From NCBI GenBank assembly GCA_022843175.1, contig JALHOE010000056.1, positions 1-42,645 on the forward strand: 42,645 bases of DNA. The letters run 5' to 3'. The notes under the pieces are model-generated. The model was not told the DNA's origin. It did not search any database and was given only the letters and a program-made list of their open reading frames with translations. Every line of letters starts with the position of its first letter. The first letter of the stretch is position 1. Source of the stretch: Deltaproteobacteria bacterium. Lineage in GTDB: Bacteria; Myxococcota_A; Polyangia; Polyangiales; JADJMO01. This document shows, piece after piece, positions 12,786-28,297 of the stretch. A program made the translations under genes and the position numbers.

Positions 12786-12796
12786 GGCGGAACCAT

Positions 12797-13540: not shown

Positions 13541-13695
13541 GAGACCATCGAGCGCACGGTAGATGCCGGCGTCGCCCAACTCGAGCTCGCCTCGACTGAG
13601 GCCCAGGACCCGGAGCTTGAGGCCGTAGCCGTGGCCCTCGTGATCGATCGCCCTGTAGCAACGCCCTCCCGAGCCGTGACCGACGCCGTAGCCAT
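13541..13695 (-). pseudogene. Broken second copy of the PadR gene
   Basis: Reading leftwards, MATASVTAREGVA aligns with the start of the intact PadR, then the match jumps frame to YRAIDHEGHGYGLKLRVLGL and LELGDAGIYRALDGLAGN. After that the similarity ends, so the wing and C-terminus are gone. There is at least one frameshift near codon 14 plus a 3' truncation. The palindrome seen upstream of copy 1 is also degraded here. Confidence 0.75.
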
Positions 13696-13810
13696 GTTGG
13701 AGCGAATACATCCTCTTTTGAGTTCCTTCCGTAGATGGCTGCGGACCATCTCCCCAAAAGCCGATCGGCTATCTTTTCGGCGCTCTGCGTGCGTCGGTGC
13801 GCGGCAGATC

Positions 13811-13816
13811 CGTGAT
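13811..13816. repeat. IS21-family target-site duplication, left
   Basis: CGTGAT directly abuts the left TG end of the IS and is repeated at 16550-16555. The uninterrupted sister sequence at 12901-12915 has a single CCGTGATGCG, confirming the pre-insertion site. Confidence 0.88.
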
Positions 13817-13822
13817 TGCCGC

Positions 13823-13866
13823 TGTTCACCCTGATGGGACCCCCCGTTTTCACCATCATGGGACAC
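13823..13866. repeat. IS21 left-end multiple terminal repeats (two copies)
   Basis: Two 20-bp units (13823-13842 and 13847-13866) share TTCACC-T-ATGGGAC. They are inverted relative to the right-end set. These are the expected transposase binding sites. Confidence 0.82.
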
Positions 13867-13928
13867 GGGGAAACAAACTCGACGACCTCCGCCAGCATGC
13901 CGCGTGAGGTCGTCGAAGGGAAGCCCGG

Positions 13929-14744
13929 TCAGTCCCTCGTGCGACGTGGGCGGCGAGCGCGCTTGTCGGCGGGGGCCTCGGGGGTCGGATCGGCCTCGAG
14001 CTTGGGCTTGAGACGCGGCCTGTAGGACTCGCCCTCGATAACGAGATCGAAGGCGGCGTTCATAAACCGATCGATCGCGCTCTGTGCGAGAAGCACGTCG
14101 TCGAACATCCGGATCCACTCGGCGGTGTCGCGGTTGCTGGTGATGATTGTCGACGCTCTGCCGGTGCGCTCGACGAACAATTGATAGATGTCCTTGCTCT
14201 CCTCGCGGCTCATGGGCTCGAGAGCGAAGTCATCAACGATGAGGAGGTCGACCGAGCAGAGAGCGACCATCTCGGCGTCGTGCGAATTGTCGAGCCGACT
14301 CTTTCGCAAGAGCGAGAGCATCTGATCGGCACGAATGAAGCGCACGTCGTAGCGATGCCGGCAGGCGAGGTGTCCGAGTGCGTTGGCGATGAACGTCTTG
14401 CCGACGCCGACGGCGCCGAGGATGACGACGTGTCGATGGTCGTTAAGGAAGCGGAGCGAACAGAGCTCGGCGAAGAGCTTCTTCTCGAAGCTGATCTTGG
14501 CCGACTTGTCGAAGCGCTCGAGCCTCATCTCGGGGTCGAGCTTTGCGGCGCTGACGCGGTTGTCGACGGCCGCACCATCACGGCGCGCAATCTCGTCGGT
14601 CAGCAGGAGGGTGAGGAGGTCCTCGGTCGACATGCCCTGCGACTCGGCGAGCGCGAGTCGGTCGGGAAGCGTGTCGGCGATGCGACCAAGTCGGAGTCGG
14701 CGAAGCGCGACGACGAGCTCGGGAGAGACGGTGGCGGCGCTCAT
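13929..14744 (-). CDS. istB: IstB-type AAA+ helper ATPase of IS21 element
   Basis: This 271-residue DnaA/IstB-family ATPase remodels target DNA for the IstA transposase. It has Walker A GAVGVGKTFIANALGHLA, Walker B LLIVDDFALEPM, and sensor I STIITSNRD with the downstream IDRF block, all standard for IstB. The start is the ATG (MSAATVSPEL) overlapping the istA stop by four bases. The N-terminal RRLRLGRIADTLPDRLALAE helix is the family's DNA-binding/IstA contact region. Length and motifs are complete, so the element is probably active. Confidence 0.95.
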   Translation of the reverse strand: MSAATVSPELVVALRRLRLGRIADTLPDRLALAESQGMSTEDLLTLLLTDEIARRDGAAVDNRVSAAKLDPEMRLERFDKSAKISFEKKLFAELCSLRFLNDHRHVVILGAVGVGKTFIANALGHLACRHRYDVRFIRADQMLSLLRKSRLDNSHDAEMVALCSVDLLIVDDFALEPMSREESKDIYQLFVERTGRASTIITSNRDTAEWIRMFDDVLLAQSAIDRFMNAAFDLVIEGESYRPRLKPKLEADPTPEAPADKRARRPRRTRD

Positions 14745-16324
14745 CGCAACTCCTTCTTCGTCTTCGAGGCGAACGTGCGGAAGTGCTCTTCGTTGCGAGC
14801 GAACCGCGGGGCGGGCAGCGGCAACTGCACGACCTTCCCTTCGGTCGTGTCGCTCGGCGCGCGGCGAATACCGAGCTTGAGCATGCGGCCGATCCGCTTC
14901 ACATCGACTACGTCGAAGCCGAGTGCGCTCTGGCACACGGCCTCCACGCGGCCCTCTCCGAATTTGTCGCAGAGAGACAGCAACGCGTACGCGGCGCGCA
15001 TTTGCGTCCATGGCAGCGGCCCGTCGAGGAGGCGCTCCGCGTAACGACCGATGTGATTGCCTCGCTCGCGCGCCTTTGCGAGGAGCGCGTCGACGCTGCG
15101 GAGGGCGTAGATCGATTTGCCGGTCGGGTAGTCGTTGGGATCAGTCGCGCGGCCGCCGGGCTGCTGGCGCGGGTGCATCTTGATCAGCTCGGTGCCCAGG
15201 TAGATGCGCACGAGCTTCGAGTCGAGCCGAACGCGAACTCGCTTGCCCAGGTACGCCGTCGGCACCGAGTAGAGCGCGCGTGCGACCTGCAGATGATGAT
15301 CCGGATGGACCTTCGCCTCGGTCCACGTCGGCACATCGAACGTGTCGGTCGGCGCGGGGAGCATCGTTGCTCGCTCGACCTGCTCGAAGACATCGCGTGG
15401 AACGGCACGCGTGGTGCCGTGCACTCGCGTACCCGCGATCTCCGCGCACCAGTGCGCGGCGCTCTTGCGCCAGTCGTCGAGCGTCGTGCACTTCTCGCCG
15501 GCGAACCAGCCACCTCGCACGTACTGCACCTGGCGCTCGACGCGCGCCTTGTCGCGCGGGTGTGCGACGCGCGCAGGATCGACGAAGATGCCGCGGGCCT
15601 GCACGTACTCCGCGAAGGTCTCGTTGAGACGCGGGTTGGTTGGGTCGGCGCCGACGATCATCGTGGTCGGGTTGTCGGGCAGCAGAGTGCGCGGCATCGC
15701 GCCGAAGAAGCGCCAAGCGGCCTCGAGACCGGCAATGATCTCGTCGGTTGTCTGTCGCCACGTGGGCCACGCGAATGTGTGCCTGCTGAACGACAACGTC
15801 ACGATGAGAACGTGGAGCTTGCGACGTCGACCGGTGTCGGGGTCCACGACTCGACCCATCTCTGCGAAGTCGATCTGCGCTTCCTGCCCGGCCGGTGGGT
15901 CGGTGAGCCGCACGGTCGCTTTGGGCAGGCCCCAGCCGAACTCCTGAATCGCGAACCGACGCAGCGTGGCGTAGCTCGTGGTCACGCCATCGCGCAGCAG
16001 CAGCGTGTGCACGCGCGTCAGTTGAAGTGGAGGTTTTGCCTCGAGCCACGCGGCAATCCGCGCGCGCTCGGGCATGAGATCTTCTCGCGCCTCGCTCGGC
16101 GTCGGCGTGGGCCGAGCCTGTACGAACTGCGCGACCGCGTGCACGAGGTCATCGGTGAGCACCGCGTCCAGCGCGATGCCCAGTGCCTCGGCCGCCGCGA
16201 TGTAGCGACGGATCGTCTTGCGATCGATCCCCGCCTCGCGCGCGATTGCCTTGATGCCGTGTCGCGACTGCCAGCGTCGCAACAACTCTCGAACGTCCAA
16301 CATGGTGAGCTCCCGGTAGGCCAT
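14741..16324 (-). CDS. istA: IstA-type DDE transposase of IS21 element
   Basis: The 527-residue transposase begins with a helix-turn-helix (SRHGIKAIAREAGIDRKTIR) for end binding. Its RNase H-fold core has catalytic Asp in QIDFAEMG, Asp in LLPDNPTTMI and Glu in DKARVERQVQYVRGGWF, followed by the beta-barrel-like C-terminal domain (DHHLQVARALYSVPTAYLGK, VRVRLDSKLVRIYL). The order and spacing are typical of IS21 transposases. The stop overlaps the istB start. No lesion is seen. The start ATG begins MAYRELTMLDVRELL, and there is a GGAGGA-like purine run just upstream. Confidence 0.95.
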   Translation of the reverse strand: MAYRELTMLDVRELLRRWQSRHGIKAIAREAGIDRKTIRRYIAAAEALGIALDAVLTDDLVHAVAQFVQARPTPTPSEAREDLMPERARIAAWLEAKPPLQLTRVHTLLLRDGVTTSYATLRRFAIQEFGWGLPKATVRLTDPPAGQEAQIDFAEMGRVVDPDTGRRRKLHVLIVTLSFSRHTFAWPTWRQTTDEIIAGLEAAWRFFGAMPRTLLPDNPTTMIVGADPTNPRLNETFAEYVQARGIFVDPARVAHPRDKARVERQVQYVRGGWFAGEKCTTLDDWRKSAAHWCAEIAGTRVHGTTRAVPRDVFEQVERATMLPAPTDTFDVPTWTEAKVHPDHHLQVARALYSVPTAYLGKRVRVRLDSKLVRIYLGTELIKMHPRQQPGGRATDPNDYPTGKSIYALRSVDALLAKARERGNHIGRYAERLLDGPLPWTQMRAAYALLSLCDKFGEGRVEAVCQSALGFDVVDVKRIGRMLKLGIRRAPSDTTEGKVVQLPLPAPRFARNEEHFRTFASKTKKELR

Positions 16325-16397
16325 GAGGTCCTCCCGACGGCGTCCCGCGCCGTCGTCGAAAGGAACCGTGCATCACTTCACCGGTCGCCGCGTCCGG

Positions 16398-16543
16398 GGG
16401 TCCCTTCGTCCTGAAAACGGGGGTCCCATGACCTTGAAAATCCTTCGATCACGCACCCCGTGCGGGGGTCCCATGAGGGTGAAAATCGGGGGGTCCCTTG
16501 AGCCTGAAAATCTCGGGCTCAGAGGGTCCCATCAGTCTGAAAA
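16398..16543. repeat. IS21 right-end multiple terminal repeats (five copies)
   Basis: Five 20-bp units of form GGGTCCC(A/T)T-----TGAAAA start at 16398, 16421, 16466, 16491 and 16524. They match the two inverted units at the left end. Five on one side and two on the other is an unusually large and asymmetric set for IS21. Confidence 0.88.
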
Positions 16544-16549
16544 ACGACA

Positions 16550-16555
16550 CGTGAT
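16550..16555. repeat. IS21-family target-site duplication, right
   Basis: CGTGAT follows the CA end of the element and matches 13811-13816. The sequence continues GCGCC, aligning with GCGTG in the empty sister site. Confidence 0.88.
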
Positions 16556-16701
16556 GCGCCTCGAAATGGATCGGGTGGATGGCCGAATGGGAAAACCGAC
16601 GGCCAGCGGTTCAAGAATTCTTGCCCGGCAAACATTTGCCCGATTTCTCGATAGTCCCACCGAGGTCTGCGTCGACTGGCCATCGGCGGTGTAGGGAGGG
16701 C

Positions 16702-17082
16702 ATGACGACTTCTCCGATGACCTGGGTCGCGTGTCTCGAGTGGATGCTGGCTCGTGGATACCGCGAGCTCATGTGGCCGTGCTGGAAGATCATGGGCACC
16801 GCCTCAGCCACGCGGACGGAGTCACTCGAGCGCGCACTGCAGCTGGGCGAGTACCAATGCACCCGGGGTCGCCGCTATTTCATCGACGAGGCGCCAAGCG
16901 TGCGCGGGGAGGTCTGCGCGTGGGTCTACGAGTTACCGACAGATCTGGACCCGGCGGACCTGATTGCCGAGAGACGGGAAATCGAGAAGCTGCTCGATGG
17001 CCCGCAGTGGATCGAAGAGCCCGCGAGCGAAAGCGCCTCCTACGCGTACGAGGCCGCCGGCGTCGGTCGCGTCGACGGATGA
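16702..17082 (+). CDS. Unknown 126-aa protein, copy 2 of a duplicated pair
   Basis: This is the partner of the gene at 13049: same length, no gaps, same blocks (ACLEWMLARGYRELMWP, RRYFIDE, VYELPTDLDPADL, EREIEKLLDGPQ-like REIEKLLDGPQWIEE). A strong GTAGGGAGGG ribosome site precedes the ATG. The upstream ~130 bases also match the upstream region of copy 1 (GAAATGGATCGG, GGTTCAA-AATT-TTGCCCGG). Its regulator copy is broken and its promoter region is separated from it by the IS, yet the reading frame is intact. Function is unknown. The open frame extends upstream to 16579, but the paralogue alignment begins at this ATG. Confidence 0.8.
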   Translation: MTTSPMTWVACLEWMLARGYRELMWPCWKIMGTASATRTESLERALQLGEYQCTRGRRYFIDEAPSVRGEVCAWVYELPTDLDPADLIAERREIEKLLDGPQWIEEPASESASYAYEAAGVGRVDG

Positions 17083-17156
17083 GCGGCGCGCGGACAGAGC
17101 CTGCCGACCCAGCAATGACTTGGAAGCGTCGCTACGGACAGGTCGTTGCGAAGGCG

Positions 17157-17790
17157 CTACTGCATTCTGTCGTCAGCGTCACCTGCGTCCCGCCGAGGCC
17201 TGTGCCTACTGGGGGATTGTCTTTGCAGTGCTGCTTCGCGCGCGCCGAATAGTCCCCCTCTGTGCTCCTCGAGCAGGTACTTCTTTTTCGCCGGGCAGAA
17301 CTGCTCCGAGATGATGACTTTGAGGTGGGCCTGGATGTTTGTCGCGCCTTTCACGTTCTGCGCCGTCTGAGGCAATTTCGTGGTCGCGCAGGCATGCAGG
17401 TAGCGCTTGTGGGCGACTTCGTTCGCTGCGTCGCGAAGATCGAGCCATAGAGACTCCAGCTCGTCGCGGTACGCCTTCTCGTCGCGATCGACGTGCTCGA
17501 TCCAGTCACACGAGGTAAGCACTCGGAGCTTGCTGCCCTGCGCGAAGGCGGCGCGCGCATCAGCGAACTTCGGTGTGGGCCCATAACGGAGATGAGCGCC
17601 CAGCCGAACCCCCAGCAGTAGTAGCCGTCGCCCTTTTCGCACGGTGCCCTTGCGGGAGCCCGGGCTTGCTTCCACACCTGCCGCGCGGCGGTGATGTCAG
17701 GCAGCTCGGCCTCGATGGCGCTGTCATGCATCGCCTTCGCCTTTGCCTTCGCGGTGAGCTCAGCGTTCTCGGGGTGAAACGGCCCGACGA
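17157..17790 (-). pseudogene. Frameshifted gene of unknown function
   Basis: Two minus-strand frames each give natural-looking protein that joins near 17585. The upstream part includes FHPENAELTAKAKAKAMHDS and CEKGDGYYCWGFGW. The downstream part includes KFADARAAFAQGSKLRVLTS, CDWIEHVDRDEKAYRDELES and VKGATNIQAHLKVIISEQF. The lysine-rich composition is unlike the arginine-rich shadow frames, which argues that both parts were once translated. A single frameshift at the GPTPK/GPHRS point would unite them. No family was recognised. A sequencing error is an alternative to real decay. Confidence 0.5.
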
Positions 17791-18068
17791 CGCGAAGTAC
17801 GACCCTCGGCTGAAACGGGTCGGCCGGGCCATCGCCGCTGCGCGACGCGGTGCCGGATTCACCCAGGAGGAGTTCGCGGAGAAGCTCGGTGTGATCCCGC
17901 GTGTCGTTCAGAAGATCGAGTCCGGCGGGATGAACTGTGCGTACGATTGCGCGGATCGCGGACGCGCTCGGGACCGAGCCGGCAACGCTCGTCCGCGGCG
18001 CCTCGGCCGGGAAGCGCACCGTGTCACCCCGCGCGCGGGCGGGCGGGAGTACATCACAGAGAAAGTGA
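17774..18068 (+). pseudogene. XRE-family regulator with a frameshift
   Basis: From a GTG start the frame reads LKRVGRAIAAARRGAGFTQE and EFAEKLGVIPRVVQKIESGG, a clear XRE helix-turn-helix (the two segments are contiguous). At ~17933-17937 the match shifts by one base to VRTIARIADALGTEPATLVR in another frame, ending at a TGA at 18066. Joined, it would be a normal ~95-residue Cro/C1-type protein. It overlaps the opposite broken gene at its 5' end, as a divergent pair might after decay. Confidence 0.65.
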
Positions 18069-18110
18069 CGCAGAGACCGTCGTCGGAACTCCTATGGAGG
18101 AGCGGCCCGC

Positions 18111-19061
18111 CTACGGAACGCGGCCGAAGGGCGCCAGCGGACTCGCGTTGCCAGCCCGAGCTTCTCGCGACGAGGTCGCGAGAACAGGTAACCCTCCTCT
18201 TCGGACGCCCGCGTCCCGAGCCGTGGCATCGCGCTCGAACACGCGTGCCGTCTGGTTCGTGCGTCTTTGGGCCGCGCGTTGGGCGCGCTGCTCCGTCGAG
18301 AGAATTCTTCCGGGATGAGCAGCGATGGCCGCGCGCACGCGCTCGATGGCGTCGCGGGTCCAGAGGTGCACCAAATAGGTCCATCCGGAATTGCGGCGGC
18401 GCTCGATGCGTGGCGCGAATCCGAGCTTCCTGGCGCGTGCGACGAAGGTCGGAGCGGTGAGCCCGAGCAATGTCGCTGCTTGGCGCGTTGGCAACCGGGC
18501 GGTCATGCGTGACCACCGTGCGCGTCGTGCTCGCGGCCTTCGAAAGTCGAGCACGCAATCGAACGAAAGCGCGTGTGCCGCGATCCACCTCGCGATCGCG
18601 TCGTCGTCATCCTCATAGACATCCGTGTCGTAGATCGCGACAACGCAGGTCCCGGCGTCCCAGAAGGCGTCGAGCTCGTCCCGGATCTCGTCGCGCGAGC
18701 CGACCACCACAGCGTACCGTCGAACGCGGGCGGCTGAGCAGATGGCGGTCCACTCGAAGTCCGGCCATTCGGGACTCTCTGCGTCCCAGCCCCATGCTGG
18801 ATTGCCGTCGTCATCGAGTGCGACGACGCGATGCACCTCGCTGCCCTCAGAAGGATCGTCCCAGTGACCCTCCGCCGGATGGTCGTGGGGTCCCGGCACC
18901 CATGTGCGGATGCCAGCAATTATGACGGCAAGGCACGCCTCCGCGTGATCGACCTCTTCGGCCAACACGTCGATGATCTCCGGAGATCCGTCAGCTTGGT
19001 GCCACCGGCCGATCTCGTACGCGGCCCACGTGGTTTCCGCCGGTTGGCTCATTGTGCTCAT
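18111..19061 (-). CDS. Unknown acidic protein with C-terminal helix-turn-helix
   Basis: This 316-residue protein is the last gene of the RT operon. Residues 1-185 are acidic and Trp-rich (TWAAYEIGRWHQADG, WGWDAESPEWPDFEWTAICS, YDTDVYEDDDDAIARWIAAH) with a likely alpha/beta fold (RRYAVVVGSRDE, CVVAIYDTDV). From ~186 an arginine-rich segment leads to MTARLPTRQAATLLGLTAPT and then RNSGWTYLVHLWTRDAIERV, a MerR/excisionase-like winged helix. The C-terminal ~65 residues are low-complexity. The start ATG overlaps the previous gene's stop (ATGA), so it is translationally coupled. The two halves might be separate genes whose stop was lost; an internal ATG exists at 18506. No family was assigned. Confidence 0.65.
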   Translation of the reverse strand: MSTMSQPAETTWAAYEIGRWHQADGSPEIIDVLAEEVDHAEACLAVIIAGIRTWVPGPHDHPAEGHWDDPSEGSEVHRVVALDDDGNPAWGWDAESPEWPDFEWTAICSAARVRRYAVVVGSRDEIRDELDAFWDAGTCVVAIYDTDVYEDDDDAIARWIAAHALSFDCVLDFRRPRARRARWSRMTARLPTRQAATLLGLTAPTFVARARKLGFAPRIERRRNSGWTYLVHLWTRDAIERVRAAIAAHPGRILSTEQRAQRAAQRRTNQTARVFERDATARDAGVRRGGLPVLATSSREARAGNASPLAPFGRVP

Positions 19062-19294
19062 GAGGACGCACCCTCTGACGCAATGCGCACCAAGCCACGC
19101 TTGCCGACTCGATACCGCGCGAGCTCGCCGCGGACGTTCCGCAGGATAATCGTGAGGTCTGGCATCACCTCCGAGCCTGAGGCAGAGGGCTGCGTCGGCA
19201 CGTAGCCGCGGCGATCCGTCCAGCGGCAAAACGCGGCGATCGCACGCGCGATCAGTTTGCCGTCGTCGAGACTTTCGATGGGATGACGGGGCAT
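19058..19294 (-). CDS. Unknown 78-aa protein in RT operon
   Basis: A short basic protein reading MPRHPIESLDDGKLIARAIA, then RRGYVPTQPSASGSEVMPDL and TIILRNVRGELARYRVGKRG. The last part suggests a small beta-rich fold (IILRNVRGELARYRVG). Its ATG shares one base with the previous stop (TGATG), the same junction type seen twice upstream, and its own stop overlaps the next start. Tight coupling on both sides supports translation. Function is unknown. A GTG one codon upstream is an alternative start. Confidence 0.62.
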   Translation of the reverse strand: MPRHPIESLDDGKLIARAIAAFCRWTDRRGYVPTQPSASGSEVMPDLTIILRNVRGELARYRVGKRGLVRIASEGASS

Positions 19295-19527
19295 CACTTG
19301 TCTCCCTTCAGGTGGGCAATGCGCGCAGCGATTGACGACCCTTGCGCACCCAGCGCCGCGTCGAGTTCCCGCCAGGCGCGCCCGCCGGGGGAGAGTTGCC
19401 CGTCATCCTCCGGCCAGCCCTCGTCCGGGTGCCAGGTTGGTGGCCACTGAATCGCGGCGTTCGCCACTTTCGGGAATTCGAATCCCGAGGGGGGCCGCCG
19501 ATCTGCGCGAAAAGCTTTTCTGTTCAT
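19294..19527 (-). CDS. Unknown 77-aa protein directly after the RT gene
   Basis: The protein begins MNRKAFRADRRPPSGFEFPK and contains WPPTWHPDEGWPEDDGQLSP, then a helix RAWRELDAALGAQGSSIAAR. The Trp/Pro/Asp-rich middle is unusual. A GGAG ribosome site lies five bases before this ATG, so it was preferred over one nine codons upstream that would overlap the RT gene. It begins seven bases past the RT stop and overlaps the next gene through TGATG. Small, tightly coupled proteins beside RT genes are often accessory factors, but no specific role can be read here. Confidence 0.65.
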   Translation of the reverse strand: MNRKAFRADRRPPSGFEFPKVANAAIQWPPTWHPDEGWPEDDGQLSPGGRAWRELDAALGAQGSSIAARIAHLKGDK

Positions 19528-19534
19528 GTCTCCT

Positions 19535-21775
19535 CTACACCGCGGTTCGAACAACGCGCGGCGGCGCCCCGTCGATTTTTACGGTCGAGCTCCGCCGACC
19601 ATCCGCCACTTCCGGCATGGGGACGCCGCCGACGATGTGGAGATCGATGTTGCGCTCGCGAGTAACCGCGTGAAGCCCCTCGACAAGTCTGAACCGGATG
19701 GGAGCGCGAAACGCCTTGAGCGGTTGGAGCAGGTGCTTCACGAGTCGCGTTGTCGGCAAGGCCACGACCACTCGTGTTGCGCGAAGGTGCTCGACGACCC
19801 CCAGGATCGAGGCCAGCTCCGCCACCTCCGGCCGGCCGCTGACATCTTTCGTCGTCCGGTCGCCGATGACCTCCCCGCGGAAGATGAGTGCGTGCACGAC
19901 GGTGCAACGGCCATCGTTGATGCGGGTAACAGCGACGTGGACCATCGGGGCGTCCGCGAGGTCCGGCGGGAGGGGAGGCGCCTCCCGATCGGACTCGTAG
20001 TCTGATCCATCGAGATGTCCGAAGACCTGCTCGACGGACGCTACAAGGAACCTGGATGACGTACAGCCATTGCTCCGCAGCGGAGTGCCGGCTCTGCATC
20101 CTTCAGACGATTCGCTCGGACACCGTTGCCCTCGCATCGACAGCTTCCCTGCGCCATCGCCCCCTATGGGGCCTGGCACCAGGACGCTGACTTCCTCCAG
20201 TTGGAGATCGTCCGCTACCCCATGGGAGGATCTTGCCTCCTGTGGAGTAGGCTCCAGTCCCGTGGTCTCTTCCTGGGTTTCCTCGGGATCCCGTGTTCCG
20301 ATGGGATCCAAAGAGTCTCCCCTTTGAGAAGTCGACTGCCCCGCAGGGGCAGTCGAGATCCCGTAGGGGATACCCAGATCGAGGCTCAGGTCACTATGAG
20401 CAGCCACGCCCACGGCCCCTTGCGGGATCATGGCCTCCGACGTGGCGCTCGTCTGGTCGCCCCAGAGCCGGGCGCGCCAGACCATCCCAGACCCTGCACG
20501 ACGTGGTGCGAGGGTGGCGGGAAAGCTCTTTTCGATCGTGCGGCGAATGAAGTCCGCCTCCTCGCGGTCAAGGTACGACCAGTATCCGACGAACCCCTCC
20601 ACCTTGGCTTCGAGGTCTGCGGCGTCGTAGACGTCCGCGCCGCAGCCGTCGCCATACCGGGATACCCCATCAACAACATTGCGCCGAGCGAGCTTGCGGA
20701 CCACTTCCCTGATCTCGTCCATTCTCTCGGCGAGGACATCCGCCGGGATGCGGATCCTTCCATTTTGATCGATGGCCGCGCCCAGCAGCGGGATCCGACG
20801 CTGATGGACGCGATGGACGAGCTTGTCGAGGTCGATGTTCCACGAGACGGTGCGCGGACCGGTCTCACGACGCTCCAGGGGGTGCGCCGTCCTCGGCTCG
20901 CGCGAGCGACTCGGGCGGTCGTCCTTGATCAGGATGCCGTGGCGGCGAGCCCAGTCGAGCACCCGACGGACGCCCTCCCGCACCACCCTCTTCGTCGGAC
21001 CGCCGATGAAGATATCATCGCAATACCGCACCACGTGGGCGTCCTCCGCGATGAGAAGCTCAAGCGTCTTGTCGAGCGCGAACGGCACCATGTTTGCGAG
21101 CAGGGATGATTCGGGCAGCCCCTGTTGCAGACCTCGCCACGTGTGGTGTTCGTCGCGACGGCCTCGCGTCACACGCACCGCGCGGCATCGGATCAGGGCG
21201 CTGACGATCGCGATAAATCGCCGCTCGTAGCCGTGGTGCTCGAGCGCAGCCTCGACAACGTCCCAGGGGATCGAATTGAAGTATCGGGCGAAGTCGAGCT
21301 TTGCCCAGTAGACAATCCGACCGGAAGAGACGCCGCCCGCGACCTCGAGCAGGGTGTTCTGCACGGCGCGGTCGGTGCCCGAGCGGTATGCCTTCGCGAT
21401 AGGGCTCAGAAGGTGATCGCCGGTCGCCGTCAGGACATCCGTGACGAGATTCGAGAGGCACCTCCGCCGATACGTCGCAATCGCCACCTCCCGCGACCTT
21501 TGGCCCTTGGATGGGGCGTTCCCGAGCCGGACTGGTTCCCCCTGAAGACCTGCTTCGAGGTCGGGCGTCTCGCGATCTAACAGTTCAGCGACGTCCAACG
21601 CCATCGCTGCAGCGTCGGCGCTTCCTTGCACCACGTCGCACAGGCGAAGGCCGTATGCGTCGCGAGTACGTGCGTCAGCACGCGCGAACGCCGCGTTGCG
21701 GGCGACGTCACAGGCAAACGTGATGCGGCGTCGATCCCGAAGGAGCCGCATGGCGTCTGTGGGCATGAGCGGCAT
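19535..21775 (-). CDS. Reverse transcriptase with long linker and RNase H-like C-terminus
   Basis: The 746-residue protein has the RT palm and fingers at ~100-420. Motif 3 is KLDFARYFNSIP (catalytic Asp161), motif 4 RGLQQGLPESSLLANM (214-229), motif 5 VVRYCDDIFIGG (YCDD 251-254), motif 6 ARRHGILIKDD, and motif 7 PLLGAAIDQNGRIRIP. Residues ~430-610 form a Ser/Gly/Pro-rich linker. Residues 611-725 look RNase H-like: three strands (VHVAVTRI, CTVVHALIFRG, EVIGDRTT), a helix PEVAELASILGVVEHL with Glu653 at the usual place, strand-helix RVVVALPTTRLVKHLL, and DLHIVGGVPMPEVADG. The canonical strand-1 and strand-4 aspartates are not seen. The start MPLMPTDAMR overlaps the previous stop (TGATG). It is not obviously a retron, group II intron or DGR RT: no maturase domain, avd or VR repeat is visible. 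Confidence 0.85.
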   Translation of the reverse strand: MPLMPTDAMRLLRDRRRITFACDVARNAAFARADARTRDAYGLRLCDVVQGSADAAAMALDVAELLDRETPDLEAGLQGEPVRLGNAPSKGQRSREVAIATYRRRCLSNLVTDVLTATGDHLLSPIAKAYRSGTDRAVQNTLLEVAGGVSSGRIVYWAKLDFARYFNSIPWDVVEAALEHHGYERRFIAIVSALIRCRAVRVTRGRRDEHHTWRGLQQGLPESSLLANMVPFALDKTLELLIAEDAHVVRYCDDIFIGGPTKRVVREGVRRVLDWARRHGILIKDDRPSRSREPRTAHPLERRETGPRTVSWNIDLDKLVHRVHQRRIPLLGAAIDQNGRIRIPADVLAERMDEIREVVRKLARRNVVDGVSRYGDGCGADVYDAADLEAKVEGFVGYWSYLDREEADFIRRTIEKSFPATLAPRRAGSGMVWRARLWGDQTSATSEAMIPQGAVGVAAHSDLSLDLGIPYGISTAPAGQSTSQRGDSLDPIGTRDPEETQEETTGLEPTPQEARSSHGVADDLQLEEVSVLVPGPIGGDGAGKLSMRGQRCPSESSEGCRAGTPLRSNGCTSSRFLVASVEQVFGHLDGSDYESDREAPPLPPDLADAPMVHVAVTRINDGRCTVVHALIFRGEVIGDRTTKDVSGRPEVAELASILGVVEHLRATRVVVALPTTRLVKHLLQPLKAFRAPIRFRLVEGLHAVTRERNIDLHIVGGVPMPEVADGRRSSTVKIDGAPPRVVRTAV
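20073..20426 (-). other. Hairpin-dense segment inside the RT gene, candidate structured RNA
   Basis: About nine short perfect stems follow one another with little spacing. Examples are 20332-20356 (11-bp stem, 3-base loop), 20286-20309 (7 bp), 20358-20371 (5 bp), 20244-20255 (4 bp), 20225-20240 (5 bp), 20195-20206 (4 bp), 20172-20183, 20161-20171 and 20073-20085 (5 bp). One minus-strand loop is GCAA, a GNRA tetraloop (20417-20426). The segment encodes the low-complexity RT linker (residues ~450-568). Flanking RT-coding DNA shows no such pattern. A structured RNA role is inferred. Confidence 0.55.
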
Positions 21776-22890
21776 CAGATCGCCTCTCGTTGGACGATCA
21801 AGCTGAGCCGGTTCGGCCGGGAAGTTCCGACAAAAGGCCATGCGACGGGTGCCACATCTTCGACGGCATTGCTTGCGACGACCTGCATCCCGGACCCAGC
21901 GACGGTCTCGTGCACGCGGCGCGTCAGCTGCTCGTCGAAGAGGTACCCGCGCGCGTCGCGAACGCTCGTCGGGAGCAGAAGGTAGCCAAGACGTCCCGAG
22001 CGGAGCGCCCGCAACGCGAGCTCGAGGTGGCCCGACAGCGAACGGAGCCATCGTTGAGGACCGAGGCGCGAAGGGTCGTCCACAACTCCGGCATCCGAGT
22101 CGGCGCTGTAGATGCGCCGGTGCTGTGACGCCGCGGGCGTCGCCGGAGAGGGGAACACAACAACGACGGCGTGATGTCCGCCCTGCAGTGCCGCCTCCCC
22201 GCGAGGCCGTCTCCCATCATCCCGAAAATTCGGCGTGCAGGAGACCGAGAACTCGTCGTGGATCCAATCGCCCTCGTCGAGGTCGACAAGCGTGGAGCCG
22301 CGCGTCGCAAGCGCCCGAGCGATGCCGCCGACGCCAGCTCCGATCACCGCAGCCCTCGTTCGCTGCCCCCGACGCGCATGCTCCGAGGCCAGGATGTGGT
22401 CCGCGGCCCACAAGGCCCATCCGTCGGGCTCTCCCTCAAGGTAGCGCGACGAGCCAAGACCCACGTCGCTCTCGACCTTGAGGAGACCGCCCTCCAGCTC
22501 CCAGGAGCGATCGCGGCTCTCCGCGACGCCGGAAGCGAGCGAGGGAGCCAGTCGCACGAGGTGCTCGCTGCGGAGAATCCGGCGTGCCTCGCGTCGAAGC
22601 CATCCGACGATGTCCGGGCGCGCCGCGAGCTCGTTGAGGATGGCGTGCTCATCGCACCGACGCACGAATGTGCGGTCCGGGTCGCCGCTGCGGTGCTCAA
22701 CACGGACGAGGCCGCGCTCCCTCGCGACGGTGAGGACGCGGTCGTCGAGTGCACGCAGGAGGTGACTCGCAAGGTCGTCACGACGGACTCCGCGGAGGAT
22801 CCGGCGCAGCGGCCAAGGGAGCACCGCTTCCTCGAGCCTGCGAAGGCGGCGCTCTGTGCGCCAATCTCCGACAGGGTTTGGCGCGGCCAT
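21775..22890 (-). CDS. Divergent SAM-dependent methyltransferase-like protein
   Basis: This 371-residue protein sits directly upstream of the RT, with stop and start sharing one base (TGATG). The N-terminal ~170 residues are helical and basic. A class I methyltransferase core begins at AAVIGAGVGGIARALATRGS (~185) with glycine-rich motif I, acidic motif II LVDLDEGDWIHDEF and motif IV HHAVVVVFPSP. Helix and strand elements follow: LRSLSGHLELALRALRSGRL, GYLLLPTSVRDARGYLF and PNRLSLIVQRE. Motif IV reads FPSP instead of the DPPY or NPPY of DNA amino-methyltransferases, so the chemistry could be altered or lost. An ATG at 22890 was chosen over a GTG one codon earlier. Substrate is unknown; tight coupling implies it works with the RT. 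Confidence 0.7.
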   Translation of the reverse strand: MAAPNPVGDWRTERRLRRLEEAVLPWPLRRILRGVRRDDLASHLLRALDDRVLTVARERGLVRVEHRSGDPDRTFVRRCDEHAILNELAARPDIVGWLRREARRILRSEHLVRLAPSLASGVAESRDRSWELEGGLLKVESDVGLGSSRYLEGEPDGWALWAADHILASEHARRGQRTRAAVIGAGVGGIARALATRGSTLVDLDEGDWIHDEFSVSCTPNFRDDGRRPRGEAALQGGHHAVVVVFPSPATPAASQHRRIYSADSDAGVVDDPSRLGPQRWLRSLSGHLELALRALRSGRLGYLLLPTSVRDARGYLFDEQLTRRVHETVAGSGMQVVASNAVEDVAPVAWPFVGTSRPNRLSLIVQREAI

Positions 22891-23348
22891 CACGTTTCGC
22901 CTTCCTCGGCGTGATGGGCGACGACACCGGCTGCAACCGACGGTTCGCGCGACTGATCGGCGGACTGCGTATCCTCGAGCTCATCGAACTCCCACGGGAA
23001 CGGCTCCGACGGCAACGGGTCCGGCTCGCCATTCCGGACGCGCTCGATATACGCATCGAGGACTTCCTCGGACGCCACCGGCAGGTGCTGCGCCGGCAAC
23101 CCAATGCTCTTGAGCGCGCGGTCAGCAGCGCGACCGGACTCGTTGAGCCAGTACCGCAGGGGAGCATTCTCTCTCCCGCGCGCGTGGTGCTGAAAGTAGA
23201 CGCGCGAGTAGTACTCGAACTCGACGACCTGAGCGCAGCGCTTCGGTTTCAACACTATGGTGAGGTCCTCATAGCGCCGGCAGCGTCGCATGAGCGCCAG
23301 CACTTCATCGTCCGTGTACGGTGTCTTGGTCTTGGCTTTGGTCGGCAT
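22890..23348 (-). CDS. Unknown 152-aa protein opening the RT transcription unit
   Basis: The protein reads MPTKAKTKTPYTDDEVLALM, then RRCRRYEDLTIVLKPKRCAQ, FEYYSRVYFQHHARGRENAP, RAADRALKSIGLPAQHLP and EEVLDAYIERVRNGEPDP, ending in an acidic tail. It is basic at the N-terminus and acidic at the C-terminus, with a predicted helical body and no cysteines beyond two near residue 23-37. A GGAGGG ribosome site is four bases before the ATG. Its stop overlaps the start of the methyltransferase-like gene. No family was recognised. Position first in the unit and lack of membrane or signal sequence suggest a cytoplasmic, possibly nucleic-acid-binding partner of the RT. Confidence 0.72.
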   Translation of the reverse strand: MPTKAKTKTPYTDDEVLALMRRCRRYEDLTIVLKPKRCAQVVEFEYYSRVYFQHHARGRENAPLRYWLNESGRAADRALKSIGLPAQHLPVASEEVLDAYIERVRNGEPDPLPSEPFPWEFDELEDTQSADQSREPSVAAGVVAHHAEEGET

Positions 23349-23543
23349 GTGGCCCTCCGATGCACAGGTCCGTGCGAGCTGAGTCGCCTCCGCTCGCGAA
23401 CGCCCTGTCCACTACACCGCGAGCCAGGTCCCCGACGACGAGACGAAAATTCCCCACGGAAGGCGCCGCCTTCACCGCCGCGGAGCTCTTGACGGCTACG
23501 TTTCAGCCGAAGAATTCGTGGACATCACGCTCCGCCGTGAGGC
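23349..23543 (-). promoter_or_regulatory. 195-base leader upstream of the RT operon
   Basis: No gene is visible between the methyltransferase stop and the 152-aa gene. On the minus strand it holds a small hairpin (CGGCT, 7-base loop, AGCCG) near 23500 and an AT-richer stretch GGGGAATTTTCG near 23455. It is the natural place for the operon promoter or for an upstream non-coding RNA; I can see no convincing sigma-70 boxes. Confidence 0.3.
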
Positions 23544-25223
23544 TCAGCCCGCCGGATCAGCGGGCACGACTCGGTATGTCCGCATGGACATCTTCACGGG
23601 GGCGCACGCGCGTCGCATCCGGGCGCGGCAGATATCCGCGATCGTCCTGTACCCCGCGGAGTATGCAGCCGATGCGACATCGATGGCGTCCCGCGTTTGG
23701 ATGGCGACGACGCGGCGGTTGCCGCTATCGGCGGCGTTCGCCGCAGCGAGGGCCTCCGCGAGGGCGCCGGAGCCGGCGAACAGATCGAGCGCGACGTCGT
23801 GCGTGCCGCGCCTCGTTGTCATCTCGACGAGTCGCCGCAACAGCTCAACAGGCTTCGCGAACTCGAAAACATGCCGCCCAACAGCGGTATCGGCGGCACG
23901 CTTCCCAGCTGCGTACGAGAATACCGGGTCGGTCCAGATCGAGGTTGCCCGGGAGAGCGTCGGCTCTTCCTCAGCGTAAGTCTTGCGATAGACGCGCCAA
24001 ACACCGCGTTGCGATCGCTTGGCAAACAACAGGTGCGCGTTACGCGAGGCGCGCTCGTGTCCCCAGCACCACACGCCGTCACGCTGCTCGCCGCCGACGG
24101 CCTCGGGGTAAACGCAGACGATGAAGGGTCGGCGACGCCGACTCGCGACCCGTCCGGTCGCAGGGTCGACGAACAGCGGGTAGAACATCGAGGGTTGGTC
24201 GTCGCGGCGTCGGCGATGATCCGTTCCGCGCAGCGGATGGATGGCATAGCGGCCACGTTCGTCACTGTGGCGGTAATGCGAAGCTGCTTCCTCCGGGCCG
24301 AGACGAGGCCCGCGCATCACTTCGGGCGCGCGTCGATCTTTGGCGTAGATGACCAGGTATTCGTGATTGGTCGCAACATGACGGCGAAGCCCCTTGCCAC
24401 GCGGATTCGTTCTCACAGCGATGCAGCCCACGAACTCCTCGTCGCCATACAGTTCGTCAAGCAGCATGCGGACCTGGTGAACGCGGCGGTCGTCAATCGA
24501 CACCGCAACGACGCCATTCGGCACCAAGAGGTCACGCGCGACCGCCAGTCTCGAGTACAACATCGACAACCAGCTCGCGTGGCGCGCATCGCGACGGGTG
24601 CGGGTTGCGGCTGGCGCAAGCCGATCATCGAACGTGAACCGGCGTCCGGTGCCGTACGGCGGGTCGACGTAGATGAGCTTTGCAAACGCACCGCGCTGGT
24701 CGCGAAGGATCTTCATCGCTTCGAGGTTGTCACCTTCGATGAGCTCGGCGGCCGGTCGCCGTCGCGCGCGTCGAGGCCGGGGGTCAACCTGTTTCAGCAC
24801 GTGTGCAGCCGGCTCCTGCACTTCGCGCTGCGCCGCGGACTTGCCGGCCCACGAGAAGTCGTAGGATTCGGGGCCCGCATGGGTCGGCGGTGCGGCCGAC
24901 GCCTCGGCCCTCTTCGTCCGTCGGTTCGCGGCGATGACGCGCTGGATCGTTCGCGCGCTCGCCTTCACGCCACCGTCCGCGGCGAGTTCCGCTGTCCGGC
25001 GCGCGTTCAGCCGCGCTTCGCCGCGAAATAGCGTCATCACGAGCTCGACCTGTTGCGGCGACAACGACCGCGCCCGCGGCCTTTTCTGGACCTCCGCATC
25101 GGTCGACGAGAGGTACCGCCTGACGGTCTTCGGTGCGACACCAACCTGCCGGCCGATGACCACTGTCCCGTAGCCGCGAGCCGCAAGGCGGCGAATTCGT
25201 ACGACTGTCGCGCGGCTCAACAT
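23544..25223 (-). CDS. DNA methyltransferase (beta class) with N-terminal helix-turn-helix
   Basis: This 559-residue protein is probably an N6-adenine or N4-cytosine DNA methyltransferase. The motif order is beta class, as in type III Mod proteins: motif IV LIYVDPPYGTGRRF (DPPY 187-190) precedes motif I VALDLFAGSGALAEAL (~490). GDNLEAMKILRDQRGAFAKL leads into motif IV and NGVVAVSIDDRRVHQVRMLL is typical of Mod. The first ~105 residues are a homeodomain-like pair of helix-turn-helix units (VVRIRRLAARGYGTVVIGRQ, VGVAPKTVRRYL), like IS630-type transposases or resolvases, an unusual fusion. No res or restriction gene is adjacent, so it is an orphan. It lies 195 bases upstream of the RT unit on the same strand and may be co-expressed. 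Confidence 0.87.
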   Translation of the reverse strand: MLSRATVVRIRRLAARGYGTVVIGRQVGVAPKTVRRYLSSTDAEVQKRPRARSLSPQQVELVMTLFRGEARLNARRTAELAADGGVKASARTIQRVIAANRRTKRAEASAAPPTHAGPESYDFSWAGKSAAQREVQEPAAHVLKQVDPRPRRARRRPAAELIEGDNLEAMKILRDQRGAFAKLIYVDPPYGTGRRFTFDDRLAPAATRTRRDARHASWLSMLYSRLAVARDLLVPNGVVAVSIDDRRVHQVRMLLDELYGDEEFVGCIAVRTNPRGKGLRRHVATNHEYLVIYAKDRRAPEVMRGPRLGPEEAASHYRHSDERGRYAIHPLRGTDHRRRRDDQPSMFYPLFVDPATGRVASRRRRPFIVCVYPEAVGGEQRDGVWCWGHERASRNAHLLFAKRSQRGVWRVYRKTYAEEEPTLSRATSIWTDPVFSYAAGKRAADTAVGRHVFEFAKPVELLRRLVEMTTRRGTHDVALDLFAGSGALAEALAAANAADSGNRRVVAIQTRDAIDVASAAYSAGYRTIADICRARMRRACAPVKMSMRTYRVVPADPAG

Positions 25224-25407
25224 CGCGCATGCATCCTATCCCACCGGTGGACCTTTTGCTGACACAGAGACAGAGGTGTGTGCCAGTAAACGGTCTACGC
25301 CGGCTGCCGTGCCGGAGCTCGCGGAAGAGACGTCGAGCGATCGCGCCGAAGGAGGCCTCGGTGGTGTAACGGAGACTCAAGGTTGCGAGTCGAGAAAGGA
25401 CTGAGAA

Positions 25408-25875
25408 ATGTACAACACACCCAGAAGGCACTTCGTCCTCGAACGCGCAGGCGACGGCATGCGCCTCTTCGTCGTCACCACGGCGAACGAGGACAACCTT
25501 CGAGCGCAGGTCTTGGAGGAAGCACTCCAACAAGTCGCGCGAATGGCAGCGGCAATCGCCGTCGCACGTCGGCTCGGCGATCGCGACCTCGCAGCTGCGC
25601 ACTACTCGCGACTCGAACGGCTCCGCACCGCAACAGCGCTTGAGATCGTGGCCGACGCAACGATCGTCTGCCGCGCCGGCGGCCCACCCGTGAGGGTAGT
25701 TGTGGAGCGGGTCCCGGCGACGCGCCACAGGACTTCGCACCGCGCCGGTGCGATCGCGACAGGGCTGCTCGCGGGATATGCTGAATGGCTTGGACGTCGC
25801 GTGACCCGCGTCGCGGTCGAGGCCGCGCTGGAAGGAATGGCGCTCTTCCGGATGCAGCGTCCCGGTTCCGCATGA
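25408..25875 (+). CDS. Unknown 155-aa protein
   Basis: The ATG follows AAGGA with good spacing. The protein reads MYNTPRRHFVLERAGDGMRL, FVVTTANEDNLRAQVLEEAL, then a long alanine/leucine helix region (QVARMAAAIAVARRLGDRDL, AAAHYSRLERLRTATALEIV), a short beta part (PPVRVVVERVP) and a final GYAEWLGRRVTRVAVEAALE. It is soluble with no signal peptide. It is divergent from the DNA methyltransferase gene across 184 bases, which probably contain both promoters. No family was recognised; regular codon use and the ribosome site support a real gene. Confidence 0.65.
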   Translation: MYNTPRRHFVLERAGDGMRLFVVTTANEDNLRAQVLEEALQQVARMAAAIAVARRLGDRDLAAAHYSRLERLRTATALEIVADATIVCRAGGPPVRVVVERVPATRHRTSHRAGAIATGLLAGYAEWLGRRVTRVAVEAALEGMALFRMQRPGSA

Positions 25876-26165
25876 CGCGATGGCGCGGCGCTCCGGAACG
25901 ATCGAGTCGGTTGTCGTCGACATCGGCGCAACGCCGTTCGTGCGCTTCAAGGATGCACCGGCGACGGCGCGGGCAGCTCCTCCACGGGTACGGCCAGCGG
26001 CAGAACGCCGACGCCGCGCTCTCGTGGTTGAAGCGCACCATCGCGGCGTCGGTCAGCAGAGTGCCTATTGGAAGCCATCGCCGTGGAACCACTCGGCGTT
26101 GACGTGGCGGCTGAGTAGAGCAGTTGGCCCGCCCATGAGGATCTTGCTTTGCATTGCTGACAGGC

Positions 26166-26420
26166 ATGAGCACGATCTGCACGGGCTTCGAGGTCGTCTG
26201 CCCCGACGGACTGGTTCGACACCTCCCGTACCACAATCGAGGAGACGCGCAGAGCCATGCACGGCATGCATCCGATGCGGAGTGGTTCGCCGACCGAGGT
26301 TGTCGTTTGGCACCCAAGCCGGGGCGCCTCGAACGAGCGATGCCGGAATGCTGCGGCGGTGAGCACAGCGTGCGCGCGCTCGTGGTTCAGCACTCGATCG
26401 CGGTTCGCGGCGATGCCTAG
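26166..26420 (+). CDS. Unknown 84-aa Cys/His-rich protein
   Basis: The protein begins MSTICTGFEVVCPDGLVRHL and continues PYHNRGDAQSHARHASDAEW, with FADRGCRLAPKPGRLERAMP and ECCGGEHSVRALVVQHS. Five cysteines and many histidines in 84 residues suggest metal binding or disulfides, but no classic zinc-finger spacing is evident. ACAGGC precedes the ATG. Its 3' end overlaps the 3' end of the convergent GIY-YIG gene by four bases. The stretch just upstream (25876-26165) contains several mutually incompatible frames and could not be resolved. Confidence 0.55.
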   Translation: MSTICTGFEVVCPDGLVRHLPYHNRGDAQSHARHASDAEWFADRGCRLAPKPGRLERAMPECCGGEHSVRALVVQHSIAVRGDA

Positions 26421-26815
26421 TTGCGCTCTCCGTTGCAGCCCATCTCCGAGCACCTGGGGTGGTTGCGAGGCGCTCCCGCCGGCACCGGCGGGTGGTTGAT
26501 GTTGTCGAGGTTCTCGGCCTTGCCGTACTTGTGGAACAGGCGGCACTCCTCCGCGAAGCCCTCATCATCGTCGTCGAGGGCCTTGCAGTAGAACTCCGGG
26601 CAGTCTCGCTCGTTGAGATGCTCGGTGAGCCGTTCCCGCAGGATGCCGCGCCCCACGTAGCGGGCGATCGTCTTGCCACTCTCCCCACGCGACACGAGAA
26701 CGTAGACGCCGTACACGTCCGACGGGATCTGGCGCAGTGTCTTCATGTCCAGCGTGAAGGGACCCGCGAGATGCCTCTCGGGGCGGAAGTGGCAGTAGAA
26801 TTTTTCCCTCGGCAT
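26417..26815 (-). CDS. GIY-YIG-like nuclease domain protein
   Basis: This 132-residue protein has the GIY-YIG signs. These are DVYGVYVLVSR (G-x-Y), then IARYVGRGILRERLTEHLNE (the Y-x-G strand with catalytic Arg on the following helix) and a later AEECRLFHKYGKAENLDN with a Glu in the metal-binding helix. A C-terminal tail NINHPPVPAGAP completes the fold. Such small single-domain enzymes cut DNA one strand at a time and occur as repair or mobile-element nucleases. MPREKF was taken as start; an ATG three codons earlier is also possible. It is convergent with the 84-aa gene and divergent from the lipoprotein gene at 27051. Confidence 0.72.
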   Translation of the reverse strand: MPREKFYCHFRPERHLAGPFTLDMKTLRQIPSDVYGVYVLVSRGESGKTIARYVGRGILRERLTEHLNERDCPEFYCKALDDDDEGFAEECRLFHKYGKAENLDNINHPPVPAGAPRNHPRCSEMGCNGERN

Positions 26816-27050
26816 GGCCTGCATCGTAGCCGACCCGAGCCATCGATTTTTGGGATTTGTGGTCGAGTAGCGCGATCCGACAGATCGACCCGTTTGTCCA
26901 TCACCCCCCAGGGGTGACATTCCAGGCTTGATGGGACTTTCCTCATGATTTTGCCGGCGTTCTCGACGCGAGACGCTCTTTTGGATGTTGGGGACGGAGG
27001 CTCGGAAGCGTTGCTTGTGGCTTGCCGATTTGTCGGTTGACGATGGCCGC

Positions 27051-28283
27051 ATGCGCTCGTTGCTCCGCCCCATCTCCGCTGCCGTTGTCGTCACGTTCGG
27101 GTTGGCCGTCGCATGTTCGACGAGCGACCCATCGCCGACGGGTGCGCCGATCCCCAAGGGCGAGATCGCGTGTGACATTCGCATCACCGACAACTCGGTG
27201 ACCCAGACGTGGACTATCGAGGATCGAGGCGCCGTCGCGAAGGCGACGGTGGAGAACACCGGCTCGGCCGCGACGTACAACATCGAGGTCAAGCTCGATG
27301 GGGTCGTAGCGTTTCAGTCCGACGTGACCATGAGCAAGCTCGGCGGAGTCTCGAACACGTCTCGCTACCTCACGCCCTTCGCCACCAAGGAGACGGTTGT
27401 CGATGTGCAGGCGCAAGGTGGATCATGGACCGTGAAGGTCGATGGCCGCCGCCTCGCCATTGACACCGAGGCTGCCAAGAAGGCGCCGCCCGCCACGATC
27501 GCGTTCGACGATGGAACGTCGGTCGGGCCGATCGTCCCGAAGGCGATCGAGACGCGCATCAACGATGCGGTGAACAAGTTGATGGGCGCCGAGAAGGACG
27601 CCCGCGAGTCGTGCGTGAACGGCACCGCGCCGGATCTTTCGCAGAAGGGGGAACCGGGCCGTCCGAGTAGTCCGCACAAGTCGGCCGAGTGCAACTCGTG
27701 TCGCAACTTCTGCGGCACGAAGTTCATCGCTTGCACTGCGGGGACGATCTTTGGCTGTTGGGCCGGCTGCTTCGGCTTGGCGGCGGTACCGATCGTTGGC
27801 GCGGCCCTCGTGGTGACGTGCAACGTGCTGTGCAACCTCGTCCTCCAGCCAAGGTGCGCCACCGACTACTCCGACTGCCTAGAGAACTGCCGCAACCAGT
27901 TCTGCTGCCCGGTGTCGTGCGGTCCGAGTGCGACGCAGTGCTGCGCGGCAGGCGAGTCCTGCTTGAACAGCGCCACCGGTCTCTGTTGCAGGGTCGGCCT
28001 CACGCCGTGCCGGGGCAAGACATGCTTCGACAACGCCGCCGAGAACTGCATGCCCGACGGCTCGGCATGCCCGAAGGAGAAGACCTGCGGTAGCAACTGC
28101 TGCAAGAGTCCCGGCGGTGGGTTCGGCACCGAGGAGAACTGCGTCTCGCCGGTCCACCATCTCTGTTGCCGCGTCGGTTTGATCGCGTGCGTGGCGCCCA
28201 ACGTCGTTGGCCCCGGAGCTGCTGTATGTTGCCCGCCGGGTGGCTGTCTGCCGGATGGCACCTGCATCAATCCGAACCCGTAG
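27051..28283 (+). CDS. Cysteine-rich lipoprotein
   Basis: The 410-residue protein has a signal peptide ending LAVACSTSDPS (lipobox-like, Cys22). Residues ~40-200 form a soluble beta-rich domain (WTIEDRGAVAKATVENTGSA, YNIEVKLDGVVAFQSDVTMS). From ~215 to the end it is packed with cysteines in C-x2-C-x3-C, CC and C-x5-C groups (ECNSCRNFCGTKFIACTAG, RNQFCCPVSCGPSATQCCAA, GLCCRVGLTPCRGKTC), recalling granulin-like or multi-disulfide surface proteins of myxobacteria. A glycine/alanine-rich hydrophobic stretch (GCWAGCFGLAAVPIVGAALV) lies inside the cysteine region. The downstream lipoprotein gene starts 14 bases later, so the pair is an operon. Surface exposure is inferred; function is unknown. Confidence 0.78.
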   Translation: MRSLLRPISAAVVVTFGLAVACSTSDPSPTGAPIPKGEIACDIRITDNSVTQTWTIEDRGAVAKATVENTGSAATYNIEVKLDGVVAFQSDVTMSKLGGVSNTSRYLTPFATKETVVDVQAQGGSWTVKVDGRRLAIDTEAAKKAPPATIAFDDGTSVGPIVPKAIETRINDAVNKLMGAEKDARESCVNGTAPDLSQKGEPGRPSSPHKSAECNSCRNFCGTKFIACTAGTIFGCWAGCFGLAAVPIVGAALVVTCNVLCNLVLQPRCATDYSDCLENCRNQFCCPVSCGPSATQCCAAGESCLNSATGLCCRVGLTPCRGKTCFDNAAENCMPDGSACPKEKTCGSNCCKSPGGGFGTEENCVSPVHHLCCRVGLIACVAPNVVGPGAAVCCPPGGCLPDGTCINPNP

Positions 28284-28297
28284 CCAAGGAGTCTCTC

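Follow-up and report, generated by a model that had tools for sequence, protein, structure and literature searches.

What is encoded by a reverse transcriptase (RT) gene that stands in a run of six tightly coupled genes and fits no recognised RT class? We addressed this question for positions 18,111 to 23,348 of contig JALHOE010000056.1 from a Deltaproteobacteria bacterium (assembly GCA_022843175.1). The whole stretch that we analysed, 42,645 nucleotides (nt) long, is referred to as the window. An earlier note on this DNA had described six coupled minus-strand frames with five junctions, and both the list of open reading frames and the sequence bear this out: the frames overlap or nearly abut, at the coordinates given below, and the junctions are, in order, TGATG, TGATG, 7 bases, TGATG and ATGA. 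Our preferred explanation, to which we assign a probability of roughly 0.48, is that the locus represents a new lineage of bacterial RT–RNA defence-type system, with a cis-encoded RNA and a methyltransferase-like partner, that travels as cargo of tRNA-integrated islands. The features that carry this reading are as follows (aa, amino acids).

21775 to 22893, minus strand: methyltransferase-like protein, 372 aa, directly upstream of the RT and overlapping it
19535 to 21775, minus strand: whole RT open frame, 746 aa (RT domain, RNA-bearing linker and RNase H-like domain)
20471 to 21775, minus strand: RT domain, aa 1-435 (Pfam RVT_1), with YCDD at aa 251-254 (~21025-21014)
19971 to 20467, minus strand: putative structured RNA of ~500 nt within the RT frame, from folding and codon-position pattern; boundaries approximate
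19598 to 19954, minus strand: RNase H-fold C-terminal domain, aa 608-726, from structure comparison

Relatives of the locus were collected at several taxonomic levels. Searching 57 related genomes with the whole RT recovered a second copy, 70% identical, in the genome of the window itself (G000, contig C84, loci L005/L006) and a distant one in G046, a contig of an uncultured deltaproteobacterial metagenome-assembled genome. Three more, G453, G438 and G420 (the last interrupted by a contig end), came from profile searches covering 184 genomes at order level and 318 at class level. On C84 the order is N6/N4 methyltransferase, 152-aa-like protein, methyltransferase-like protein, RT with the same C-terminal extension, 77-aa and 78-aa proteins, and then a different gene. 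At all six loci, in five genomes, a methyltransferase-like protein of ~370-415 aa lies directly upstream of the RT and overlaps it. Five frames recur in order at another locus of this genome, and the methyltransferase–RT pair recurs in four other genomes of the order; the arrangement is thus, as judged from gene order, more than chance. Other matches were rejected as relatives: G424 (99 bits) has a common group II intron RT and no methyltransferase-like partner, and phylum-level matches at 43-73 bits were other RTs, of which those retrieved lacked the partner. Single-sequence scans of broader genome contigs and viral contigs gave no relatives, and alignment-based scans of the same contig sets gave only the G046 contig and unrelated RTs. 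At the sensitivity used, the methyltransferase-like protein had no match among plasmids and phages and the G453 RT none among plasmids.

The earlier note had taken the 746-aa frame, counted from the ATG that overlaps the stop of the upstream gene, as an RT throughout. This holds for the RT domain (aa ~1-435); the remainder is an RNA-like stretch of ~170 codons followed by an RNase H-fold domain, and the note had missed this RNA, which is the main feature of the locus. The same three-part architecture is seen in the paralogous RT (741 aa) and in the G453 RT (712 aa). Between the two paralogues, substitutions favour third codon positions up to aa ~435, after which the bias is lost for ~170 codons. 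Counts at the three positions are 84/75/202 in the RT and 31/27/34 in the RNA stretch (p 0.67 against a uniform distribution), and the two distributions differ (p 0.005). The ratio of synonymous to non-synonymous differing codons changes in parallel, from 126:137 in the RT to 17:50 in the stretch.

Folding points to the same interval. The single-strand fold of the stretch (541 nt) has a z of -5.9. The consensus fold of the two paralogues, compared with column shuffles, reaches z values of -4.9, -5.0 and -6.2 at 20467-20071 and -2.6 on to 19971; elsewhere in the operon no consensus window falls below -2.1, and the fold scan found no strong structure upstream of the RT. With single sequences, the only windows under -3 within 6.5 kb of the G453 locus are those of the corresponding linker (z -5.6 and -3.6), and in the G046 locus the RT is directly followed by the strongest fold signals (z to -7.8). 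A single z value is insufficient as proof, because 6 of the 710 background windows of the window reach values under -4.5; the positional agreement of three lineages is much stronger. The stretch thus looks like a strongly structured RNA of ~500 nt in the RT frame, with a signal at four loci (two in G000, G453 and G046).

Sequence similarity between the RNAs is slight. A 17-nt hairpin motif, CCC[AG]U[CA]GGA[AC]CACGGGA, is common to G000 and G453 (14-15 of 17 positions), and it is not kept as protein, because its codon phase differs between the two. A covariance model built from the two paralogues (R1) gave one match in the 85 kb of the six loci, at the G453 linker with an E value of 0.54, which is weak alone and telling by its place. 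At this E value, and with a local nucleotide similarity to G453 or G046 that shuffled sequences can also reach, the case for homology of the RNA between lineages is mainly one of position and folding, and we do not claim as homology the short motifs common to the stretch and G046, whose similarity is not above that of shuffles. In its own genome, the RNA stretch has no convincing copy besides the two RT loci, which argues against both retrohoming and a diversity-generating retroelement (DGR); the DGR accessory gene avd was not searched for separately. As a separate observation, strong folding also occurs in the window at 8761-8925 (z -7.4), 30961-31120 (z -6.1) and 34081-34245 (z -5.5).

We assessed the class of the RT. 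It has a significant Pfam RVT_1 match (1.8e-15) and an intact YCDD, and the catalytic residues are invariant in the family alignment, with YSDD in G453. As a yardstick for PADLOC scores, CRISPR RTs reach 224-268 bits and DRT2 fragments 208-320 bits, each on their own model. The best score of the window RT is 59 bits and those of its relatives are 72-92 bits, and the nearest models are UG17, UG26, UG4, Drt9 and CRISPR-RT. Scores stay below member level throughout: on the UG17/DRT10 model 50.3 bits for the window RT and 66.8-87.3 for its relatives; on Drt9 52.8 (window), 71.9 (G453), 49.1 (G438) and 39.5 (G046); for DRT2 22.5 bits on NCBIfam Drt2 (cut-off 390), with relatives at 34-60 on PADLOC Drt2; and for retrons 36 bits on the best PADLOC model and 47 bits on the St85 model (cut-off 235). 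Because these member-level scores are not reached, we do not file the system under DRT2, DRT9, DRT10 or retrons. At the level tested, which covered PADLOC, NCBIfam, solved structures and a tree, the RT is outside the described groups, as the earlier note had supposed from its lack of a class match.

The nearest models raise the alternative that, instead of a new lineage, this is a divergent defence RT of an existing UG/DRT group that is unsampled here, such as one close to UG17/DRT10 or DRT9. Among solved structures, the family profile also scores 63.5 bits with chain 9ioa, an RNA-dependent DNA polymerase that we take to be DRT9. The range of 50-92 bits compares poorly with the 208-320 bits of members, and the UG17-type matches are unspecific, because the UG17 model gives 99-166 bits with generic CRISPR RTs and with a group II RT as well. 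UG17/DRT10 systems feature a SLATT-domain protein encoded beside the RT (PMC12632851, PMC8934634), and library scans gave no SLATT match among the operon neighbours. We regard membership of an existing group as rather improbable. The tree placement that the note had proposed was carried out in part. In a maximum-likelihood tree with 12 group II RTs and 10 CRISPR RTs, a branch present in 99% of bootstrap trees sets the five RTs of this family apart from both, and the four closest are joined with support of 100/99 on a long stem. The tree holds no true UG17 or DRT9 sequence, because the presumed UG17 reference proved by its tree position to be a group II RT.

Group II and group II-like (G2L) RTs are the nearest relatives among solved structures, the family profile scoring 83 bits with the GsI-IIC group II intron RT and 58 bits with G2L4. 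Together with the location on mobile islands, this would suit a mobile retroelement of group II intron-like or retrotransposon-like kind, with the RNA as the means of copying itself. Against such an element, the two RT loci are the only places in the genome with the RNA stretch, these copies occupy corresponding places of syntenic islands, and the group II RT/maturase model TIGR04416 gives 57.3 bits against a cut-off of 300. No group II RNA was recognised by Rfam over 18000-23600 at E values up to 5, and over the operon Rfam gave nothing except one chance small nucleolar RNA match. We consider a self-copying element most improbable. Similarity to CRISPR-associated RTs (RT-Cas1, Cas6-RT-Cas1) is comparable, at 61 bits with Cas6-RT-Cas1, whereas the window RT has 59 bits on the CRISPR RT model PDLC01136 against 224-268 for CRISPR RTs, it falls in a separate clade, and a library scan of the operon proteins gave no Cas match beyond the RT domain itself.

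The partner of the RT was also examined. The 372-aa protein has a GAGVGG motif resembling an S-adenosylmethionine (SAM) site, and a GxGxG-like motif is found in most members and is degenerate in G046. Its best Foldseek matches are the 16S rRNA methyltransferases Kmr/KamB; in structural comparison, Z is up to 7.8 (VIA) with a root-mean-square deviation (rmsd) of 3.7 over 130 aligned residues, and the fold matches are class I methyltransferases, many of them RNA-acting. Although the predicted model is of modest confidence (predicted local distance difference test, pLDDT, 54.8), it suggests a class I SAM-methyltransferase fold, so the methyltransferase-like call of the earlier note is supported by these matches and by the protein's place ahead of the RT at each of the six loci. 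Methyltransferase activity is uncertain because motif IV is degenerate except in G438, which has DPPS; the window protein has FPS. Of a different kind is a pair of homologous genes of unknown function at L053 10334-11044 (plus strand) and L055 1939-2580 (minus strand), which share 30% identity (E 4e-16); in G453 and G438 they precede the methyltransferase gene in divergent orientation.

The C-terminal domain resembles RNase H. Aligned with RNase H1 (4e19, VIA), aa 608-726 give Z 9.7 and rmsd 3.5 with 117 of 133 residues aligned, and the matches shown are all RNase H. This fold assignment comes from a low-confidence model: the AlphaFold2 prediction of the full RT is poor (pLDDT 39.6), and the RNase H part alone is interpretable. 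The domain is 31-33% identical to that of G453. By reading of the alignment, the DEDD catalytic acids are not kept; the beta1 and beta4 acids are absent in all three sequences and the alpha1 Glu is absent in G453, so that this is apparently an RNase H-fold domain without catalytic acids, and its RNase H activity would be lost. A 191-aa protein after the G438 RT, which looked RNase H-like by eye, found no support in profile comparison.

We propose the following mechanism for an RT–RNA system that would most likely work like Class 2 defence-associated RTs (DRTs) or retrons. Its core would be the class I methyltransferase-like protein, the RT and a ~500-nt structured cis RNA within the 3' portion of the RT message, with the RNase H-fold domain additionally fused to the RT beyond the RNA in G000 and G453. 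The RT would bind the RNA element of its own transcript and copy part of it into complementary DNA (cDNA), and the apparently dead RNase H-like domain would help to hold the RNA or an RNA–DNA hybrid. The methyltransferase-like partner may regulate the complex, mark the RNA or the hybrid, or be the effector, and phage infection would be the likely trigger.

Comparison with known systems shows where this architecture departs from them. DRT2, DRT9 and DRT10 combine an RT with a neighbouring structured non-coding RNA (ncRNA) that serves as template (PMC12632851). The locus is like these Class 2 DRTs in that an RT adjoins a structured RNA on mobile islands, and in that the Drt9 and UG17 models are among the better PADLOC matches of the window RT. 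It is unlike them in that the RNA is ~500 nt long, lies in the RT frame and is 3' of the RT domain, whereas UG17/DRT10 has an upstream ncRNA with an A-B-A' template; in addition, it has a methyltransferase-like partner and an RNase H-fold domain, no SLATT protein, and RT scores far below those of members. Retrons likewise combine an RT, a cis-encoded structured RNA and an accessory gene in an operon. The retron RNA is upstream of the RT, retron models give at most 47 bits here, and no retron accessory type matches. Retroviral RTs share the order of RT and RNase H-fold domain, but here the catalytic acids are not kept, a ~170-codon structured-RNA linker separates the domains, and the RT is of bacterial type. 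We found no description of such a system in the open-access literature. Bacterial RTs with cognate RNAs make unusual DNA products, including repeat cDNA, de novo genes and telomerase-like repeats. To these, a lineage that falls beyond the known groups and combines a methyltransferase-like partner with an RNase H-fold domain and a large RNA inside the RT gene would contribute another architecture; it poses the direct question of whether one transcript can be both message and template; and new RTs are possible DNA-writing tools.

The reading frame across the RNA bears on how the RNA is used. There are 0 stops in 181, 180 and 173 codons of the two G000 copies and G453 (chance 0.006, 0.008 and 0.006), and at G046 a 239-codon open frame, in a frame other than that of the RT, covers the RNA (chance 2.8e-6). 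This G046 frame (L042 2780-3703) has no family match. Because the frame is open through the RNA at all four loci, the RNA would either also be translated or have to be stop-free. A rival explanation is that the folded stretch is structure of the messenger RNA (mRNA), neither bound nor copied as a cognate RNA, with a role in timing translation or folding between the RT and RNase H-like domains or in controlling downstream expression; the single open frame running from one domain to the other in both G000 copies and G453 fits it, as does the open frame at all four loci. The size of ~500 nt with several stems and the entire loss of codon-position bias speak against this, as does G046, which has the strongest fold signal although its RT stops ahead of the RNA and no RNase H-like domain was found further downstream. 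We judge mRNA structure to be unlikely. Tentatively, and with low confidence, the locus could instead be an altogether new kind of retro-system in which the RT message holds its own template or guide RNA in a translated, stop-free frame, one transcript being both mRNA and cognate RNA, and the methyltransferase-like partner acts on the RNA or the RNA–DNA product.

Several points weigh against the defence-type RT–RNA system that we prefer. RNAs of Class 2 DRTs and retrons are upstream or separate, not within the RT frame. A pure template would not need an open frame, yet the frame is open at all four loci, and the G046 arrangement differs as just described. G438 has no strong RNA fold signal, the covariance-model match in G453 reaches only its E value of 0.54, and the nucleotide similarity of the stretch is within the shuffle range for G046 and marginal for G453. 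Beside the operon we recognised no defence genes or toxin-like effector.

The remaining genes of the run, and the methyltransferase gene next to it, are as follows.

22890 to 23348, minus strand: 152-aa protein, upstream of the methyltransferase-like gene, with a partial homologue only in the paralogous island
19294 to 19527, minus strand: 77-aa accessory protein, 48% identical to the L006 copy
19058 to 19294, minus strand: 78-aa accessory protein, 76% identical to the L006 copy
18111 to 19061, minus strand: 316-aa protein, window copy only, with no counterpart in any related locus
23544 to 25223, minus strand: N6/N4 DNA methyltransferase, type III Mod-like, with an IS21-transposase-like N-terminal helix-turn-helix (Pfam N6_N4_Mtase 5.7e-24, PADLOC MTase_III 4.9e-77)

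The earlier note had treated all six genes as one functional system and had suggested counting how often the neighbours recur. In that count the methyltransferase-like partner recurs in four other genomes, and the 152-, 77-, 78- and 316-aa proteins do not. At the related loci inspected, no gene of the six beyond the methyltransferase–RT pair was found outside the window's genome; the 152-, 77- and 78-aa proteins are confined to its two related islands, and the genes after the G453 RT are on the opposite strand. By recurrence, the core is a methyltransferase-like protein plus an RT, which is smaller than six genes. Library scans gave no family match for the 152-aa protein. The N6/N4 methyltransferase is 59% identical to the L006 copy and lies just upstream in both islands of the window's genome; it had no match at the other loci inspected, and its part in the system is uncertain.

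The integrases and insertion sequence (IS) that the note had seen nearby are present, and the neighbourhood is more fully described as a tRNA-integrated island. The window locus lies on an island of ~28 kb beside tRNA-Phe (window 10736-38700); each end has a tyrosine integrase, and the island also encodes an AAA_25 protein. One end is marked by the following feature; the attachment repeat of this end was not found in the window.

10736 to 12306: tRNA-Phe (10736-10810) and the adjoining tyrosine integrase (10747-12306, minus strand), end of the host island

The paralogous island on C84 (~10000-29700) is syntenic and lies by tRNA-Arg; a tyrosine integrase gene adjoins the tRNA, and an AAA_25 protein is encoded here too. 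On this synteny, the RT operon is cargo common to two islands of ~20-28 kb at different tRNA genes. Every locus with sufficient flanking sequence resembles a mobile island, with integrases and AAA_25 in G000, an AAA_25 relative in G438, and ParB and an MCM-like AAA protein in G420. The genes could instead belong to the life cycle of the island itself, in replication, transfer or superinfection exclusion, rather than to host defence. We think this very unlikely: the backbones differ among genomes while the methyltransferase–RT pair stays, as cargo would. Within the window island, an IS21-type istA/istB pair is inserted at 13929-16324 (minus strand) and is absent at the corresponding place of C84, and a subtilase-family peptidase (PF00082, 3.8e-48) is encoded at 29252-30649 (plus strand), outside the blocks common with C84.

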